A stretch of DNA of 64,000 nt, taken from positions 119,313,374 to 119,377,373 of the forward strand of contig OW804098.1 of NCBI GenBank assembly GCA_942159475.1. The letters are read 5' to 3'. This DNA comes from Sthenelais limicola. Lineage: Eukaryota; Annelida; Polychaeta; Phyllodocida; Sigalionidae. The first letter of the stretch is position 1. Every line of letters begins with the position of its first letter. Both the position numbers and the translations under genes were made by a program. The notes below the pieces were generated by a model. The model ran no database searches. It was not told where the DNA came from and saw only the letters and a program-made list of their open reading frames with translations. Shown here piece after piece: positions 16,618-57,211 of this stretch.

Positions 16618-16872
16618 ATCGCTGCCATCTCGCCTCTCGCCTCTCACCTCTCGCCTCTCGCCTCTCGCATCTCGCCTCTCGCATCTCACTTTTGAATTCT
16701 CGCCTCTCACCTTCTAAGTCTCACCTCTCACCTTCTAAGTCTCGCCTCTCACCTTCTAAGTCTCGCCTCTCGCCTCTCGTGTCTCGCCTCTCGCCTCTCG
16801 CCTCTCGTGTCTCGCCTCTCGTGTCTCGCCTCTCGTGTCTCGCCTCTCGTGTCTCGCCTCTCGTGTCTCGCC
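16618..16872. repeat. CTCGCCTCTCGC minisatellite (left foldback arm)
   Basis: Tandem CTCGCCT/CTCGTGT/CTCACCT heptamer-like units with TTCTAAGT interruptions. It is the reverse complement of the GAGAGGCGAGAGGCG array at 18340-18455. Confidence 0.9.
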
Positions 16873-16947
16873 TTCCGTTTCCCACATAGTAGATCCATTT
16901 TTTCAATGAGACTGAACTTATAATGGCAGACTTCCTTGACTCTAGGT

Positions 16948-17418
16948 ATGAGGGTGAGAAGGAGAGGGAGGGTGAGAGGGAGAGGTAGGGTGAGAGGGAG
17001 AGGGAGAAGGAGGGGGAGAGCGAGAGGGAGGGGGAGAGGGAGAGGTAGGGTGAGAGGAGAAGGGAGGGTAAGAAGGAGAGGTAGGGTAAGAAGGAGAGGT
17101 AGGGTGAGAGGGAGAGGGAGGTTGAGAGGGAGAGGTAGGGTGAGAGGGAGAGGTAGGGTGAGAGGGAGAGGTAGGGTGAGAGGGAGAGGGAGGGTGAGAG
17201 GTAGGGTGAGAGGGAGAGTGAGAGGGAGGGTGAGCAGAAGAGGTAGGGTGAGAGGGAAAGGGAGGGTGAGAAGGACAGGTAGGGTGAGAGGGAGGGTGAG
17301 AGGGAGAGGTAGGGTGAGAGGGAAAGGGAGGGTGAGAAGGACAGGTAGGGTGAGAGGGAGGGTGAGAGGGAGAGGTAGGGTGAGAGGGAAAGGGAGGGTG
17401 AGCAGGAGAAGGAGGGTC
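16948..17418. repeat. Purine-only minisatellite, GGTAGGGTGAGAGGGAGA
   Basis: About 470 bp of nearly pure A/G (plus T in GGTAGGGTGAG) built from 6-18 bp units, with 66 bp higher-order copies (GGGAAAGGGAGGGTGAGAAG at about 17253, 17319 and 17385). Open frames on both strands are artefacts. Mirror-symmetric purine tracts like this can form triplexes. Confidence 0.92.
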
Positions 17419-17479
17419 ATTGTCATCATTGGTACATATGTCTTCTTTGGGACATAACAACATCAATATTCAATACCAA

Positions 17480-17605
17480 AATATCTAACAAACCGCCGCC
17501 TACCCAATCCAGTCGCCCACCCCCTCCAGCTGCCCCTACCCCACTACCGCCTCCCCCTCTCCTGCCTCCCCGTCTCCCCACCCCCCACTCCCGCCCTCCC
17601 TCATA
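17480..17605. repeat. C-rich low-complexity tract
   Basis: CCGCCTACCC, CCACCCCCTCC and CCTGCCTCCCCGTCTCCCC strings. It follows the purine block closely and has the opposite strand bias. Confidence 0.8.
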
Positions 17606-17629
17606 TTTCCATATCTCCCAGTCTCAATT

Positions 17630-17702
17630 TTAAGTTTGATGAATGAAAATATGGGAAATAAACAGTATATCATTGTGACTCATTTCCCTGTAACACATCA
17701 AT
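17630..17702 (+). mobile_element. MITE-B right-end fragment
   Basis: TTTTAAGTTTGATGAATGAAA followed by TTGTGACTCATTTCCCTGTA and ACACATCA. Confidence 0.5.
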
Positions 17703-17865
17703 ATAAACTCGAAGGTATGCAAGGAATTAGACTATTGAATTGGAAACATTATTCAGTGGAACTAATATTTCCTCTCATTAGGGGAAAGGTGAGAGGGGAG
17801 AGTTGAGGGACGAGAGGTGAGAGATATCACTCCTGGGCCAAAAAACTGGTATGAAAGACAGAGAA

Positions 17866-17912
17866 GAGGGAGAGAGGGAGAGAGGGAGAGAGGGAGAGAG
17901 GGAGAGAGGGAA
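17866..17912. repeat. (GGGAGAGA)n microsatellite
   Basis: Six clean GAGAGGGA units between 17866 and 17912. Confidence 0.9.
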
Positions 17913-18012
17913 GTATATATGGGGAGAGAGGGTGACCGTCCTACATGCAGAGGAGTGGGAGAGTGAAGAAGAGGGTTAAAATACAATTGTAATTCAAAAT
18001 TCTATTTTTGTG

Positions 18013-18194
18013 CCCTGTATGTAACTCGTTTTCCAGTAACACATCATCATTTTTTCTATAATTGTTTAAGATATTATTATGACTCATTATCCTGAAACGC
18101 ATCCCCTGTATGTAACTCGTTTTCCAGTAACACATCATCATTTTTTCTATAATTGTTTAAGATATTATTATGACTCGTTATCCTGAAATGCATC
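18013..18194. repeat. 91 bp tandem duplication of MITE-B ends
   Basis: CCCTGTATGTAACTCGTTTT starts at 18013 and again at 18104. Each unit contains two MITE-B-like right termini (AACTCGTTTTCCAGTAACAC and GACTCATTATCCTGAAACGC), so a double-ended relic has itself been duplicated. Confidence 0.85.
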
Positions 18195-18989
18195 CTTTAT
18201 TTACTAATAAAAAGCAAGGACACAATGTAGGCCTACCATGCCACCATGCCACATGTGATTGAAGTGCCACATGTGGGGAATTCCCCTAGTTCCAGTTCCC
18301 TTGGTAAAAGGTGGAATCTCCACTATGCAGATGGAAAACGTGGTGAGATGCGAGAGGCGAGAGGCGAGAGGCGAGAGGCGAGAGGCGAGATTTAAAAAGT
18401 GAGATGCGAGAGGCGAGAGGCGAGAGGCGAGAGGTGAGAGGCGAGAGGTGAGATGGCAGCGATGGGCTTCCGTATTCATGGCCAGTGATCCATGTAGGCA
18501 GGACCATGTCACTCCTCTCCACCTACAGAACCAGCACAAACCATCGCAAGGCTTACCGCAGAGCTTACCACAGCCAGTGGAAACCCCCCTTAAATGATAC
18601 TGCCTAGTTGGTGAGATATACTATCCATGATAGCATCTATATTATTGGTACTTTAGCTGGTAGATGGCTAATGATCTGCCTCTAAATATAGACCTAACTT
18701 TACCCGGGCGTCTAACATCATTTACTACTGCTAGTATTCTATAGGGCACTCTATATAATGTCATTAGTTGGTGAGAAGGACATTCAGATGTGTGGGTCCT
18801 CAATCATACAGCTCCCCCCCCCACACACACACACACTCACACCTCCTCTACCACCCTGGAATATGAGAATTTGTTCATTTACCTTTTTTTTTAAAAAAAC
18901 AAGTACTAAGTTAAGAAATTATCAAGTTAAGTTTGGTTTATCTATTTAATATTACAATTAGTGTCAACTTAATTTATGTACATAAAAAA

Positions 18990-46819: not shown

Positions 46820-49632
46820 CCTATTGTACCTTGTACGGGTGAACAGGTGTATGGGTACAATTCCTTATTGTAGATGAGGGTGAATGCCCTATTGTACATG
46901 TATGGGGGAATCCCCTATTGTACATGTGTGGGGGAATCCCCTATTGTACATGTATGGGGGAATCCCCTATTGTAAATGTATGGGTGAATCCCCTATTGTA
47001 CATGTATGGGGGAATCCCCTATTGTACATGTGTGGGTGAATCCCCTATTGTACATGTATGGGTGAATCCCCTATTGTACATGTATGGGGGAATCCCCTAT
47101 TGTACATGTGTGGGTGAATCCCCTATTGTACATGTATGGGTGAATCCCCTATTGTACATGTATGGGGGAATCCCCTATTGTACATGTTGGGGGGAATCCC
47201 CTATTGTACATGTATGGAGGAATCCCCTATTGTACATGTATGGGGGAATCCCCTATTGTACATGTATGGGGGAATCCCCTATTGTACATGTATGGGGGAA
47301 TCCCCTATTGTACATGTATGGGTAAATCCCCTATTGTACATGTATGGGTGAATCCCCTATTGTACATGTGTGGGGGAATCCCCTGTTGTACATGTGTGGG
47401 GGAATCCCTTATTGTACATGTGTGGGTGAATCCCCTATTGTACATGTGTGGGGGAATCCCCTATTGTACATGTGTGGGTGAATCCCCTATTGTACATGTG
47501 TGGGTGAATCGCTTATTGTACATGTATGGGGGAATCCCCTATTGTACATGTGTGGGGGAATCCCCTATTGTACATGTATGGGTGAATCCCCTATTGTACA
47601 TGTATGGGTGAATCCCCTATTGTACATGTATGGGTGAATCCCCTATTGTACATGTATGGGTGAATCCCCTATTGTACCTGTATGGGGGAATCCCCTATTG
47701 TACATGTATGGGGGAATCCCCTATTGTACATGTATGGGGGAATCCTCTATTGTACATGTATGGGTGAATCTCCTATTGTACATGAAAGGGGGAATCCCCT
47801 ATTGTACATGTATGGGGGAATCCCCTATTGTACCTGTATGGGTGAATCCCCTATTGTACATGTATGGGTGAATCTCCTATTGTACATGTGTGGGGAATCC
47901 CCTATTGTACATGTATGGGTGAATCCCCTATTGTACATGAAAAGGCGGAATCCCCTATTGTACATGTATGGGTGAATCCCCTATTGTACATGTATGGGTG
48001 AATCCCCTATTGTACATGTATGGGGGAATCCCCTATTGTACATGTGTGGGGAATCCCCTATTGTACATGTGTGGGTGAATCCCCTATTGTACATGTGTGG
48101 GTGAATCCCCTATTGTACATGTGTGGGTGAATCCCCTATTGTACATGTATGGGGGAATCCCCTATTGTACCTGTATGGGGGAATCCCCTATTGTACATGT
48201 ATGGAGGAATCCCCTATTGTACATGAATGGGTGAATCCCCTATTGTACATGTGTGGGTGTATCCCCTATTGTACATGAAAGGGGGAATCCCCTATTGTAC
48301 ATGTATGGAGGAATCCCCTGTTGTACATGTGTGGGTGAATCCCCTATTGTACATGTGTGGGTGTATCCCCTATTGTACATGAAAGGGGGAATCCCCTATT
48401 GTACATGTATGGGTGAATCCCCTATTGTACATGTGTGGGGGAATCCCCTATTGTACATGTGTGGGGGAATCCCCTATTGTACATGTGTGGGTGTATCCCC
48501 TATTGTACATGAAAGGGGGAATCCCCTATTGTACATGTATGGGTGAATCCCCTATTGTACATGTATGGGGGAATCCCCTATTGTACATGTATGGGTGAAT
48601 CCCCTATTGTACATGTGTGGGTGAATCCCCTATTGTACATGTATGGGGGAATCCCTATTGTACAATGTATGGGGAATCCCCTATTGTACATGTATGGGTA
48701 AATCCCCTATTGTACATGTATGGGGGAATCCCCTATTGTACATGTATGGGGGAATCCCCTATTGTACCTGTATGGGGGAATCCCCAATTGTACCTGTATG
48801 GGTGAATCCCCTATTGTACATGTATGGGTGAATCCCCTATTGTACATGTATGGGGGAATCCCCTATTGTACCTGTATGGGGGAATCCCCTATTGTACATG
48901 TATGGAGGAATCCCCTATTGTACATGTATGGGTGAATCCCCTATTGTACATGTATGGGTGAATCCCCTATTGTACATGTATGGGGGAATCCCCTATTGTA
49001 CCTGTATGGGTGAATCCCCTATTGTACATGTATGGAGGAATCCCCTATTGTACATGTATGGAGGAATCCCCTATTGTACATGTATGGAGGAATCCCCTAT
49101 TGTACATGTATGGGTGAATCCCCTATTGTACATGTATGGGTGAATCCCCTATTGTACATGTATGGGTGAATCCCCTATTGTACATGTATGGATGAATCCC
49201 CTATTGTACCTGTATGGGTGAATCCCCTATTGTACAATGTATGGGGAATCTCCTATTGTACATGTATGGGTGAATCCCCAATTGTACATGTATGGAGGAA
49301 TCCCCTATTGTACATGTATGGGTGAATCCCCTATTGTACATGTATGGGGGAATCCCCTATTGTACATGTATGGGGGAATCCCCTATTGTACATGTGTGGG
49401 TGAATCCCCTATTGTACATGTGTGGGTGAATCCCCTATTGTACATGTGTGGGTGAATCCCCTATTGTACATGTATGGGTGAATCCCCTATTGTACATGTG
49501 GGGGGGAATTCCCTACTGTACATGTGCGTAGGGTGGGTTCCACTGCCCTGCCACTATTGTAAATGTGTGGGGCAATCCCCTATTGTACATGTGTGGGTGA
49601 ATCCCCTATTGTACATGTGTGGGTGAAGTGAA
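46820..49632. repeat. 26 bp minisatellite, about 100 copies
   Basis: Unit: GAATCCCCTATTGTACAT plus GTATGGGG or variants GTGTGGGT, GAAAGGGG and GTATGGAG. The array is regular from about 46893 to 49500, with degraded units at both edges (for example GGATCCCCTATTGTACCTTG at 46814). Single-base indels occur at about 47890, 48046 and 48650-48670. Since 26 is not a multiple of three and no frame has a stop, 26-residue peptide repeats (MGESPIVHVWGNPLLYMYGG...) appear in all forward frames; these are not genes. Confidence 0.97.
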
Positions 49633-51330: not shown

Positions 51331-51636
51331 CGAACCCTAGCCATCTCTAGCCACACCATGCCTGGGTGGGCACATCATTGCCTTCAGTCAGAATCAAATG
51401 TCACAAGTCATGAACTACATGATTATCTGGCAACCCCAGACCCTCTGGTCACTGCCAAATTAGATATCATACGGCCAGTCTATATTTGGCTGGTCTGGGT
51501 TAGTTTATTCACATATGTAGACTAGATTTCCCTCCAGTGACTTTACTTGAAATGTTTCTTGCTAAGCTATTTCCCCTTGCTTAGGTTGGAAGTTCCTACA
51601 GTAGGAATACAAATCGTATAGCAAATTCCTTCCCTA

Positions 51637-52307
51637 AAGGCGGGGTTCCACTGCTCTGCTACTTCTTCCGCTACTCCTCCCGCTTCTTGATTATGAAAGC
51701 GTGAGTACACAGAGAAAAATGTGGGTTAGAAAGTTAGTCAAAAGGTCGAAAATTTTTCAAAAAAGTTACTCTTTTGGACTGTGCTTACTTGTCCGAAGTT
51801 TCTAACCCTTTTTTTGTCTACCCCATAGGCCAATTGACTAAGTTTGTTGAGAAAGGTTAGCTCTTTTGACTAGGGGTTAGTGAAAATATTTCAGCAGGTC
51901 CAGTGTAGTAGAGGAGTAGTAACAGAGATGGGTGCTATAGGGTCCCGCTAAATAGCCACGTTACTTCCTGCTTCTTTTGGTGCATTTTTCGAATCGTATA
52001 GTGCCCCCGCTTCTATCAAACATGTTTGATTTGAAAGGGCTGCTACGCTACTTTGTAACTGAACTAGTGGGACGTAGTGGGAACTGAAGCAGGGTACTGG
52101 CACCACCCTACGTTACTACATGCATTACTTGATGCATTCAAAAAAAAACTTGTCTGCTCAGAATTTTGAGGAGCGATATAAGTACCGGTGAACGTAATGT
52201 GCCAATAGCACCCATTCAATTAACGTCCTGCTTCTAAAGAAACGGGAGCAATTTAGACTGTAATAGTATAACGGCAACCGTAGCAGGGCAGTGGAACCCA
52301 GGCTTTA
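51637..52307. mobile_element. H2 Harbinger-like element, second copy
   Basis: AGGCGGGGTTCCACTGCTCT to GGCAGTGGAACCCAGGCTT with TAA at both sides. Relative to the 40.6 kb copy it carries an extra ~180 bp (about 51710-51900), itself bounded by GGGTTAGAAAG and inverted TTTCTAACCC strings. The rest aligns, including AAACATGTTTGATTTGAA. Confidence 0.8.
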
Positions 52308-52592
52308 AAGGTTCCTTACCGACTGCTTATCAAGGAAAGGGAAGAAGATCATAACAAAGGATTTGTTATGCAACGGGCGCCTGATGAAGCAGCATGTCCC
52401 ATGACATCAGTGTTATCAGTAGCGTGTGAAATAAAGCTTCTCCATGTGTGCATCTCACCAACTGATAGACATTGACGGCCTTCAGTCTCATTATCTCATA
52501 CAGATACAGATGGGCAATCAGCTGCTATAGACCTCTACAGTGGGTAGTCAAATCTAAGCTATTTTTAAACATGGAAATTAAGTTAATTATAT

Positions 52593-55500
52593 GGGTCAGT
52601 TTTTTCAAGTGTGCTGTTTTGCCATATAGGGGTGTAAGGGAAGGGCCAAATTTGAAAATATCTTAAACTGTTTTTCGAGACCCTGTTGGTATTATACAAG
52701 GTTTGAGCTGCCAGGAAAACTTTATTCCAACAAATTCGGACCAGCAAGTCTGTCTTTTTGGGCCTTTTGAATATCTTTGCTTATATACTGTGACGTAAGT
52801 ATATCCTTCATTGTTGGAATTTATTGAAAACTCTTAATTTCCATTGATGGATATCTCAGATGAGAACCATATTTTGTTCAAAGAATCCTTTTATTAGATA
52901 TGATAAGTACTTATAGTGCCAATATCTCATGAGCAATATGTACAATGTGGCCTTCAACTGATTTATATCATTTTATCTTGTTTTTGCAGGGGTTTTCTGC
53001 TATTAAAAATAATTTTCATTCCAATTTGTCCTACTCTTCAAGTAAACAGCTGACTATATATGTATTTCTATGTACTGTTTTCTGACATATCTTTTTATAT
53101 AGTACAAGCTCACAATTTAGGCCACAAACCTATAATATTTTTTTAGGGCTCCTTTTAAATACCTCAAAATGGGATATACTTACGTCACACATATGCTTTA
53201 AAATTCGAATTTTCAAATTTATGAAATAGAAATGAATAAAGATATGTTTGTAACATTAGAAATACATTCTCAACTTCAGGTAGCATCATCACAACCTTAA
53301 AAGCCAAGTGAAAAATGATCTTGGCTCACAGTGCATGCCCTTTCAACCTTGAAATTCATATAATTTTGACCAAAATTCCAACTATTTAACCAAGATACAT
53401 GAATTATTGATTTATTTCACAATAAAACCAGTAAAGAATGCACCCCATACCTCGTTCACTTCCATATATATCCATTTGAAACTAATCATTCAACTTATAA
53501 ACATGTCAAAAGGCCAGATCCCTATGCCAGGCAGGGATATACCTACGTCACATATTAAAGATAAAATACTTCACATGAGCTGAATTAATTAGATTTAAAT
53601 AGCCTAATCATGTCGGATATGATATTAACTTGATAACAAATGTTTCCAGAATATATTTTACTAAGAAAACCTGTTGGAAAATAAATTTGGATGAAAATGA
53701 GACATTTTCTATCCCAGAATTTCATTGGAATTTGTACAAAATTCCACTTTTTCATCTGAAATCTCAGGAATAAATATTTTGTTTCAAATAAAACCTATAT
53801 AGGTCCAACTTGATACACCATTAAATATCTGATATCTATTTAAAACTATTACTTCAATCATTTGCACAGTACAAAATGCTCAGATCTCTAGGCCAGCAAG
53901 GGATATACTTACGTCACATACTAAAGACACTAAACTTCCAATAAGCAGAAACAATATTCCTTAAATTACAATAGCCTAATTGGACTATATATGGCCCACA
54001 TACACCATTAAATATCCCATGATAGAGTTGAAACGATCATCTCAACTATTTACACATGAAAAAAGGGTCCAATACAATGGCCATCAAGGGCTATACTTAC
54101 GTCACATGAAAGAAAATAATTCACACCAGATGAATGACTTCACATCAGGTGAATTAATTATTTTAACTTGAAATAACAACAATATGGCACACCCTATACA
54201 CCATTCCAAGTCCCATATCCACTTGGAATTTTTTTAGAACTATTTATACATGGAAAAAGGGCCAGATGCTATGGCCAGCCAGGGATATACTTACGTCACA
54301 GACTAAAGACAAAATACTTCACATGAGGTGAAAACAATAATGATTATATTAGAATGGTGAAACTTCACTGTTTATAATTTAATTAGATTAACAACAGTTA
54401 GTAGAATGGATTCTAGGCAGAAAACCAGTTGAAAAAACCACTTGGGTCATGAAGAGTCAGTTCTTAAATTGTGAATCGATCAAAATTTATAGAAAATTCT
54501 ACATTGTTAACAAAAAATGTCAAAAAAAATTGTTTCATTTCAGAACAAAGACTATTTACATCACACCCTATACACTTTTCAATATACCATAATCAGTTGA
54601 TAATATTATCTCAATTATTTAGGCATTGGAAAAGGGTCAATGTCATGGCCAGAAAGGGATATACTTACGTCACAAAATACTTCACAGGTGGTATTAACTA
54701 TAATTTTGAGATAATAATAACCAAATTTCACTTACTATAGCTTCAAATTAGCTATTCCAATAGACCATATGATATACCCTATCTCCTATTATTTAGTATT
54801 TTAACTATTTATGTATGACAGAAGGGTCAGATCTAATGGTCAGCAGGGATATACTTACGTCACAAACTAAACAACACATAATTGTACAAAATAATGGTAT
54901 TATGTGAGATGGAATTTAAGCATTTATGGAGTCCACATGATGCAGGTATTGACAAAGTTTGCATCCAAGTACAAAATATTGATTGGAAACTGTCTGCAAT
55001 ACTTTTTGAAACTGTATTGTCTACTAATTTAGGAGGATATACCTACGTCACAAGTTGGTATTTTGAAGGGTTTTCGACCTTAGATGGCACTTATTGAGTA
55101 TATTTAAAAAAAATGAAAGTTTTCTCATTAAGAGACGTTGAAAAGAACCCCCAAAATAGGTAATCCAATTCTTAATATTTTAATGCCACTTCTGTGCAGT
55201 TAATTGTATGATGGTGACGTAAGTATATCCTAAAAGTTGGAAAATGGGGTTATGAAAAATAAACTGTTTCTGGACAAAGGATTTTGAAGTTATGCATTCA
55301 ATTTTTTGCCTTGATAAAGAGATTATATATACCTTAATTGTAGTTGGGTTTTTAGGTATGTGCTTGAAACATAACTTATCACAAATGGCTTTTTTAAAAG
55401 GGATATACTTACGTCACATAATTGGAAAAATTGTGTTGGAAAAATGTGGAAGGCCATGGGGAGTAGTGTTGAGGCCTAAATAACATCAAAATCTGAACTC

Positions 55501-55814
55501 ATAGAGAGTTCCTACCTTGGTATACAAATTTAAGTCCAATAGCTGTACATTCTTAGGCCTTTGAATGTGTGAACATTGTTACAATCTATTTGTTTTACGT
55601 TTTTTTCAACAAAAAGTGAGGTAAAATAGCAGTTTTTTCGATTTTTAAACACTAAATATTGGTTTAGGATATGGAAAAGTATATGTGGAATGAAAGAGCT
55701 CATCGAGTTGAATCACATGAGACATAAATAATGAGTATTCAACTCATGATGTTGGAAATATTCCTGGAAATGTAGCCATAATGCAAAACAGCACACATGA
55801 AAAAACTGACCCAC
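52593..55814. mobile_element. 3.2 kb TIR element with 11 CRE-like motifs
   Basis: Left end GGGTCAGTTTTTTCAAGTGT then GCTGTTTTGCCATA; inverted right end TATGGC..TGCAAAACAGC then ACACATGAAAAAACTGACCC, giving arms of about 32 bp with few mismatches. Flanks are ATAT and ACAT. Between them lie only short frames and no transposase. The first seven bases equal the MITE-A terminus, so both may use one transposase. The interior is the degenerate satellite annotated separately. I know of no described element of this layout. Confidence 0.75.
52790..55417. repeat. Degenerate ~187 bp satellite with GGATATACTTACGTCAC core
   Basis: Core starts: 52790 (inverted), 53172, 53535, 53901, 54089, 54283, 54657, 54847, 55035, 55214 (inverted), 55401. 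Intervals: 382, 363, 366, 188, 194, 374, 190, 188, 179, 187, i.e. one or two ~187 bp periods. Nine of eleven cores keep TTACGTCAC or its complement exactly and two have CTACGTCAC; 54089 has GGCTATAC. Some context is also shared (AGGGTCAGAT, ATGGCCAGCAAGG before the core; AAATACTTCACATGAG after it), but most of each unit has diverged. TTACGTCA is a CRE-type bZIP site. Confidence 0.88.
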
Positions 55815-55845
55815 ATACCATACCATAACTCAATATAGTTACAGC

Positions 55846-55990
55846 CGGGGCCGCAGTAGCTGCAATAGACCTTGCAATAGGCTTTGCAACAGGCTTTGCA
55901 ACAGGCCTGGCTATTGCAGAGACCTATCGAAAAGGCCTGTTGCAAACATAGTTACACTTCTGCAATAGAGCTTTGCAATTGATCACAATA
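55846..55990. repeat. GCAATAGGCTTTGCAA iterations, H4 fragment
   Basis: CCTTGCAATAGGCTTTGCAA, then AGGCTTTGCAACAGGCC and AAAGGCCTGTTGCAAACAT. The same strings fill the arms of H4 at 56.9 kb. Confidence 0.65.
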
Positions 55991-56894
55991 GCATGGTGGC
56001 TTCTGCGATGCAATCCTTATTGCCAACAAAAATTAAACATCTGTATAATATACGTAAAGAGGGGTTTCTTTGTCTGACTTGTTATTGGAATCTATTATGT
56101 GAATAACCGTATTTCTGATCTGTACAGTTCCGTCCATCCTCTCTAGAGGACAATGTGTGTGGTTTGTGAAGGTATCTGGGATGAAAATATGCTTTTAAAG
56201 CACTTTTAAGTTTTTTTAGTTTTGGTCTATACAACCATTTTTAGCCAGGGAAAGTTGGAAAAGCTTTTGGGAGAGCCCTTCTGGGACGTTCTTGGTCAAC
56301 GTCATTCCCTATTGAGGTCATGCTTTTTTACTCCACGTTGGTGTATGTACCACATGCTATTTGTATGGGCGGGAGTAGTGTAGTAATCTATCGCGAAATT
56401 CACGCGTGAAGGATGGGGGTAGTAACAAGGGCTCCCATTGGTTGATACAGTCACCTGATCATATTGTTGTCATCGACCAATCAGATCACAGCTTTCTCCT
56501 GGGTTTTGAGCTGCTGGTCTAAAGATGAGTCAAGTCAAGATCTATGGCTGTATTTGATTTTGTAAGTAAAATGCCTTCATTATTCTTTAATATACTTGAA
56601 CATAGCAACGCGGGAGTAAATATAGTACCTAAATTTGAATGTGTTACTTGGGACACTTCTGCACTGGCCTTGATGTTTGTTTTTTTTGTAACCCACCCGC
56701 CTATCAGCTTGTGGGCCACGAAAAAACATCTCGGCCAGTGCAAAAGTGTCCCGAGTACCACATTTCCATTAGGTAGTATATATATTTCCCGCCGTCTGTG
56801 CAATGTGGGATTCCCTAGCAACTCTTTCTGCAGAGTACCTAGCAACAGGAGAGAGAGATCAGAGCTTATTGCAGCTAGGGTGGGCCTGCTCTTA

Positions 56895-57211
56895 AGGCGG
56901 GAGCACACTGGCTGCGATAAGCCTCGCAATAGGCTTTGCAATAGAAACAACAGAATTTGATTTTGGTGGTCAGTGAATTGCAGCCATGTGGTCAGTGGAT
57001 CGCAGCTATTTGCAATAGCCTCTGCACCAGCTTTGAGACAAGCCTCACGATAAGGAATGCGTCGCCGTCTATCAGAGAAATATTAGACATTATATATAGA
57101 ATTAAATGCAAAGGTGTGGTCACATTTGCAATAGGCCTCTTCAATATCTGGGCCTATCAGGAAGGCCTCTTGCAAAGCTTATTGTGAGGATTATTGCGGC
57201 GACTGTTGCGC
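56895..57211. mobile_element. H4 Harbinger-like element
   Basis: AGGCGGGAGCACACTGGCTG then CGATAAGCCTCGCAATAGGC; the right end is CAATAAGCTTT-type sequence inverted, ending GACTGTTGCGCCGGAT. TTA on each side. The arms repeat GCAATAGGC/GCCTATTGC. Compared with H1, the start of the arm (CACTGGCTGCGATAAGC) is the same, showing common descent. Confidence 0.7.

Follow-up and report, generated by a model that had tools for sequence, protein, structure and literature searches.

The window analysed here (the whole 64,000-nt stretch of Sthenelais limicola DNA) contains a DNA transposon, a copy of what is termed family A below, which is flanked by a target site duplication (TSD), bounded by terminal inverted repeats (TIRs) and occupied by an array of short conserved cores (Table 1). 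No stop-to-stop open reading frame of at least 110 aa lies inside 52593-55812, and no Rfam family reached its gathering score when structured RNA was sought over 51500-57000.

Table 1. The window element and its parts, in window coordinates
Feature	Position	Strand	Remark
Non-autonomous DNA transposon, family A copy, 3,220 bp	52593..55812	+	non-coding
Left 30-bp TIR, GGGTCAGTTTTTTCAWGTGTGCTGTTTTGC	52593..52622	+	
Right 30-bp TIR	55783..55812	-	differs from left TIR at the W position
Left TSD, ATAT	52589..52592	.	
Right TSD, ACAT	55813..55816	.	one mismatch against the left
Subterminal block, ATTCCAACAAATTCGGACC	52724..52742	+	common to family A and sister family B
GTTGGAA adjoining core 1	52813..52819	+	aligns with GTTGGAA in the equivalent slot of family B
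GTTGGAAA adjoining core 10	55236..55243	+	aligns with GTTGGAAA in the equivalent slot of family B
Core 1, exact	52790..52806	-	points to left end, 197 bp inside element
Core 2, exact	53172..53188	+	
Core 3, C at position 9	53535..53551	+	
Core 4, exact	53901..53917	+	
Core 5, C at position 3	54089..54105	+	identical spelling GGCTATAC in 8/8 aligned copies
Core 6, exact	54283..54299	+	
Core 7, exact	54657..54673	+	
Core 8, exact	54847..54863	+	
Core 9, C at position 9	55035..55051	+	
Core 10, exact	55214..55230	-	inverted
Core 11, exact	55401..55417	+	points to right end; unchanged in 8/8 aligned copies

The window copy has the 30-bp TIR at each end, as do the other copies that were read whole; several fetched copies were truncated and had one TIR or none. 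Target duplications were assessed in 30 insertions with both flanks read (19 from family A, nine from the sister family B, one miniature and one composite). A 4-bp duplication was exact in 23 of these, ATAT accounting for 11 of them, as against 11/30 at length 2 and 0-1/30 at lengths 3 and 5-10, and the position counts (A49 T37 A36 T49 of 60) describe an AWWT-type site. Two hallmarks of a cut-and-paste DNA transposon, TIRs and a target duplication of fixed length, are present.

At up to 3 mismatches, the window holds 11 matches to the family A core, GGMTATACYTACGTCACA (17-18 bp), where 0.11 would be expected, and none of 100 shuffles reached 11. The initial annotation had reported eleven cores, nine direct (+) and two inverted (-), over 52790-55417; the number, places and strands hold, but three of the eleven carry one mismatch that went unremarked, the other eight being exact. 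Successive cores are 179-194 or 363-382 bp apart, in agreement with the one or two ~187-bp periods first described, and they lie, as was also claimed, inside an element with TIRs.

The units of the window were placed by their cores and compared without gaps. Identity was 0.97 within the core, 0.35 and 0.40 in the adjoining 10 bp and 0.31 beyond, where composition alone predicts 0.285; a gapped alignment gave 0.45 outside the core. This alignment had been named beforehand as the comparison on which the idea of a specially conserved core could fail, and the core came out far more conserved than the rest. That the DNA lying between cores has largely lost its similarity is true of the five outer units, which show no homology beside the core (0.28 upstream, 0.29 downstream), but only partly so of the six middle ones, where residual homology persists by the core (0.47 over 60 bp upstream and 0.42 over 40 bp downstream). 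The CENP-B box is a 17-bp conserved box in the diverged units of alpha satellite, and had been offered as an analogy only. The likeness extends to a 17-bp box in diverged units of ~170-190 bp, but the CENP-B box pattern itself, NTTCGNNNNANNCGGGN, has no match at one mismatch or fewer in 52593-55812, and unlike alpha satellite the array sits in a dispersed TIR element.

Genome-wide searches (1.13 Gb, 161 contigs) found the exact A 17-mer 492 times, the form GGMTATACYTACGTCAC 877 times, the sister form GGGMYTTCATGCGTTAY 1,261 times and the TIR, at one mismatch or fewer, 691 times; the backward control of each gave 0. Element homology was found at all loci of the exact 17-mer among the matches listed (100 of 492), with blast of the window region detecting it in 27/27 loci fetched round the 100 listed. 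The left 194-199 bp of the window element match at 99-100% at six or more other loci (40 of 649 candidates scored), and since near-identical copies indicate recent transposition, the subfamily to which the window copy belongs seems to have moved recently. As for spacing, a gap was counted as on period if it differed from a multiple of 187.5 bp by no more than 12 bp for each period, as would about 37% of uniform gaps. Among the matches listed (100 places for each core), 82/82 A-core gaps and 80/82 B-core gaps shorter than 1 kb were on period, and 6/100 A places and 2/100 B places had no neighbour within 1 kb. At the places listed the 17-mer is therefore not randomly spaced, which was the second check proposed at the outset. 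In the copies examined (17 A, 8 B), the single step has a median of 187 bp in family A (95 gaps) and 188 bp in family B (82 gaps), and the double step in family A has a median of 372 bp (69 gaps); such gaps are inherited by related copies and so are not independent of one another. Single-step spacings in eight B copies (L038-L045) fall into groups near 178, 188 and 198 bp, which differ by about one helical turn, in a sample of few independent slots.

Family B was found by its paired TIRs. It has the TIRs, the layout and the ~188-bp step of family A, with another conserved core, GGGATTTCATGCGTTAY, in place of the A core throughout. At up to 3 mismatches, each of 19 A copies has 10-13 A cores and no B core, and each of the nine same-TIR elements examined as members of family B (L038-L045 and L047) has 9-13 B cores and no A core. 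Variant forms, GGGATTTCACGTGTGAC and GGGATTTCATGTGTGAA, occupy the two slots of family B nearest the left end, so the switch was not uniform. Slot orientation runs -, + ... +, -, + in both families alike; the first core begins 196-204 bp from the left end, and in copies that have no inserts at the right the last two begin ~587-600 and 397-412 bp from that end. Over the left 260 bp and the right 630-640 bp, the alignment of the window copy with one B copy (L041) continues across the slots, each copy having its own family's core, and both families have ATTCCAACAAATTCGGACC near the left end and GTTGGAA beside the end cores. Further occurrences of the 8-mer GTTGGAAA in the window element are at 55435, near core 11, and, away from cores, at 53673 and 55751. 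The window interior shows no clear further homology to that of another B copy, L040 (best match E 0.013). All told, the cores were replaced throughout, whereas the TIRs, the ends and the orientation and spacing of the slots stayed as they were. Off-register comparison within family B gives similarities of roughly 67-89% across hundreds of bases, and differences between copies amount to whole units. The likeness of B units means that many B cores may stem from one amplified unit rather than from site-by-site co-evolution; that said, B cores also stand in the unlike contexts of the two ends, and these cannot be explained by amplification alone. A pair of families with the same ends and layout and mutually exclusive cores offers a ready test of how a DNA-binding protein and its multiple sites change together.

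Constraint on the core was measured between copies. In an alignment of eight full-length family A copies, 3.2 kb each, private changes numbered 11 in 187 core columns and 1,010 in 3,033 others (0.059 versus 0.333 per column), making them 5.7-fold rarer in the core. Shared changes came to 0.064 per column in the core and 0.156 outside, and private changes at CpG columns to 0.136 and 0.611. When the core mask was slid round the element, one of 3,219 shifts equalled the observed conservation. Ranked individually among non-core windows, the slots run from 0.80 (54657) and 0.85 (52790, 55214) up to 0.998 (54089, 55401), so the signal belongs to the set of slots and not to every slot. Family A copies had been fetched for holding at least one exact 17-mer per region, which biases them towards conserved copies. 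The eight copies of the family B alignment were selected by paired TIRs and length without regard to the core, which removes this objection, and in them private changes numbered 10 in 221 core columns and 609 in 2,609 others (0.045 versus 0.233), with 2 of 2,833 mask shifts equalling the observed conservation. Fisher tests of core against outside, which treat columns as independent, gave 1e-18 for family A and 1e-13 for family B. The 19 A copies yielded 217 sites when up to 4 mismatches were allowed. In these sites 15 of the 17 core positions are at least 94% fixed and position 18 is A in 88%; most of the variation is between A and C at position 3 and between T and C at position 9, and the core changes of the eight-copy A alignment are mostly of these two kinds as well. 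CpG density is 56/kb in A cores against 6.9/kb outside them, and 51 against 2.7 in family B. The deficit of private changes in both families supports the initial proposal that the core is under selection, most simply, to judge from sequence, for binding by a sequence-specific protein.

The reading that we favour, and hold to be moderately probable, is that these are non-autonomous cut-and-paste transposons whose cores are putative cis-acting sites for a protein supplied in trans by an autonomous partner. That protein would be either the transposase, with a DNA-binding domain that is itself site-specific, or a further protein of the element resembling TNPA. We infer that it binds the core and is encoded by the element, and the array would then help to recruit the transposase and to join the ends of an element 3-4 kb long. 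A ~188-bp step would place one site per nucleosome, perhaps in every linker, and motif and binding protein would switch together, as has been proposed for CACTA elements and TNPA.

The core might instead bind a host transcription factor, for example of the bZIP/CREB type (TGACGTAA), so that the element would be transcribed, germline-accessible or insulated and would owe its mobility to a host regulator. The A core does contain TTACGTCA, and a host factor that favoured mobility would likewise constrain the lineages that move. Still, the constrained stretch is 17-18 bp with little slack, 13 of the 17 positions being at least 98% fixed over the 217 sites, and a bZIP dimer site is shorter than that. 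Moreover, the A core is missing from all nine B copies, which have the same TIRs and layout with CATGCGTTAY-type cores instead, and this account would therefore call for two different host factors. We regard a host factor as unlikely, and the bZIP protein suggested at first is not borne out; an element-specific protein fits better with the absence of any A core from those nine copies.

The description of the array as satellite-like survives in part. Copies are dispersed transposons lying between TIRs and TSDs, unlike a contiguous satellite array, and the layout is inherited with the element; a tandem-repeat table has no row inside the window element, where no contiguous array of like monomers was found. 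Family B interiors, by contrast, are nearer to satellite. An ordinary satellite might have been captured by a transposon, its core being a chance slow spot or a stretch homogenised by gene conversion. The off-register similarity and whole-unit differences of family B are as in satellites, and the six middle A units retain homology, but the outer A units share only the core; conversion tracts of 17 bp that spare the flanks would be implausible, and spellings peculiar to some slots persist across copies (GGCTATAC at 54089 in 8/8 copies, GGGCCTTC at B slot 1885 in 7/7), contrary to homogenisation. A captured satellite was already disfavoured and is hardly credible.

Evidence on when selection acts comes from core and flank divergence, which were measured for all pairs of whole copies compared. 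For A pairs whose flanks diverge by 8-24%, the ratio of core to flank divergence is 0.21-0.32, and for B pairs at 8-13% it is 0.30. In four independent A pairs at 0.7-4.5%, hand-picked from the pair list with two overlapping pairs of the L012/L031/L046 trio left out, there were 11/737 core changes and 209/12,383 flank changes (ratio 0.88, p 0.88), a result that differs from the eight-copy A alignment with a z of 3.7; one pair, L014/L016 (ratio 0.97), supplies 7 of the 11 core changes. The trend is not smooth, for five pairs below 1.3% give a pooled ratio of 0.54 and six B pairs at 3-8% give 0.48. Since the core changes as fast as the flanks in those four recent pairs, selection seems to act on moving lineages and not on settled copies. 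Taken at face value, and the numbers are small, core loss in settled copies runs at roughly the neutral rate, and movement continues only in lineages whose cores are intact. This contrast between recent and old copies is what a cis-acting transposition site would be expected to show and argues, on few events, against selection by the host in place; it points to a constraint that serves movement rather than the host.

The regular spacing invites a different interpretation, in which a protein bound every ~188 bp phases nucleosomes or blocks silencing, and so keeps the element accessible rather than joining its ends. Consistent with such a chromatin device are the medians of 187 and 188 bp, the 162 of 164 gaps below 1 kb that are on period among the matches listed, the equality of the period where the window interior and one B interior have no clear homology, and the survival of core CpGs in a CpG-poor element. 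The period could, however, be the mere legacy of an ancestral array. The 2-period gaps of family A contain no core remnant (at 32 midpoints the mean best mismatch was 8.78, against 8.22 in control windows), and elements with many empty slots have spread. In this form the chromatin reading seems quite improbable. Spacing could also be combined with the favoured role in transposition. The elements would then be transposons with a chromatin-scale array, one site for their own protein per nucleosome repeat from end to end, that assembles or opens a long element, and cross-mobilisation between families would be avoided through a joint change of the protein and of the motif at every site, with TIRs and layout left as they were. 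This fuller proposal is doubtful. If it is true, motif-switching families have naturally recorded how protein and DNA co-evolved across a dozen sites simultaneously, and the A and B arrays are in any event a test of whether transposons tune binding sites to nucleosome spacing.

A further alternative is that the core is a site of recombination or replication, concerned with unit expansion or copy-out replication and not with recruiting a transposase. Unit number in family B does vary by whole units, and the sites are asymmetric and oriented. Unequal exchange accounts for the gain and loss of units, though, and the near-end sites of A and B agree in orientation and lie about equally far from the ends, which suits recognition of the ends better; a role of this kind is very improbable.

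Several known systems resemble the arrangement favoured here, that of sites for an element protein. In CACTA elements, a short motif present in direct and inverted orientation near the ends is recognised by TNPA and needed for transposition (PMC2613891). The A and B elements likewise repeat a motif in both orientations, here a putative binding site. The same source describes soybean CACTA families, Tgm1 and Tgmt*, whose subterminal motif differs by 6 bases and whose binding proteins its authors infer to be diverging (PMC2613891), and there too the motif differs between families of one genome with common TIRs. Unlike CACTA elements, A and B have termini that begin GGGTCAG and not CACTA or CACTG, a 4-bp duplication and not one of 3 bp (1/30), and sites that are not confined to the subterminal regions but run through the whole 3-4 kb at ~188-bp steps. 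Galileo, of the P superfamily, is reported to have a footprinted 18-bp THAP-domain site that recurs in tandem repeats inside the element, and the authors of that work propose higher-order transposase multimers and suggest that extra sites may offset element length (PMC3688188). A site of 17-18 bp repeated within the element is common to both systems; Galileo-G, however, as described there, has a 1.2-kb TIR and three located sites, compared with a 30-bp TIR and 9-13 sites between the ends here. The long, internally repetitive TIRs of Galileo and Foldback elements are absent, the longest inverted arms in the window copy being 40 nt. Sola2 elements have a 4-bp AWWT TSD (PMC3627910), and this likeness to the Sola superfamily, which is one of TSD, is a lead and not a placement. 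The A and B elements would thus work like CACTA and Galileo and, on the features tested, are members of neither. What seems new is that sites are distributed over the entire element at a nucleosome-like step and that, between families with the same ends, one core has given way to another throughout. No title or abstract in the literature searched, with subscription papers and Repbase outside its scope, describes a comparable array, and the strings for the TIR, the A core and the B core are absent from the open literature searched.

Short and composite relatives bear on how much of the array is needed and on the putative partner. A 364-bp miniature (L048, C1:148697180-148697543) joins ~278 bp from the left end of family B to ~85 bp from its right end and has an exact 4-bp target duplication and one exact left-end B core, and an 846-bp same-TIR element at C5:111527683 has one exact A core in the 490 bp read. 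Since such elements exist, movement does not strictly depend on a full array, which may nonetheless matter for long elements. One family B copy (L047, C1:58076597-58083972) has a second right half joined on and contains a retrotransposon gag fragment twice, two ORFs carrying a retrotransposon gag domain. A 12.3-kb same-TIR family B element (L036/L037, C1:156943700-156956400) holds an LTR retroelement whose frames, assigned by eye from the ORFs, are gag-like and env-like and whose two LTRs are identical over 699 bp. The extra length of both is at least partly LTR retroelement sequence. Two further same-TIR pairs of 12.34-12.37 kb (C1:72614749, C2:31529455) are known by TIR positions alone, and their similar length suggests that the LTR-bearing composite may itself have moved.

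L036/L037, the one of the three 12.3-kb pairs that was read, had been a candidate autonomous partner and proved to be family B with its LTR retroelement. No transposase, autonomous partner or DNA-binding protein was found in the same-TIR copies read, a minority of the 691 TIR matches. Of 20 unpaired C1 ends examined among the matches listed, 19 continue past the TIR with a match to A or B, which in L052 and L065 is weak or brief; the sole end unlike A or B, L066, showed no convincing ORF in itself and the 2 kb beyond. Exact TIRs followed by unusual bases number 6 and 6 genome-wide, and of these 12, L066 and the 846-bp element were read.

Other repeats lie elsewhere in the window. Between 46859 and 49525 there are ~103 copies of a 26-bp unit, AATCCCCTATTGTACATGTATGGGGG, with 92% matches, and further copies occur at 49554-49627. 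Several purine/pyrimidine-rich tandem tracts (GAGAGG and TCTCGCC units) occupy 16628-18453. Short repeats of the GCAATAGGCTTTGCAA type are found at 55861-55906, just outside the right end of the element, and at about 56905-56950, and are perhaps the ends of another mobile element.
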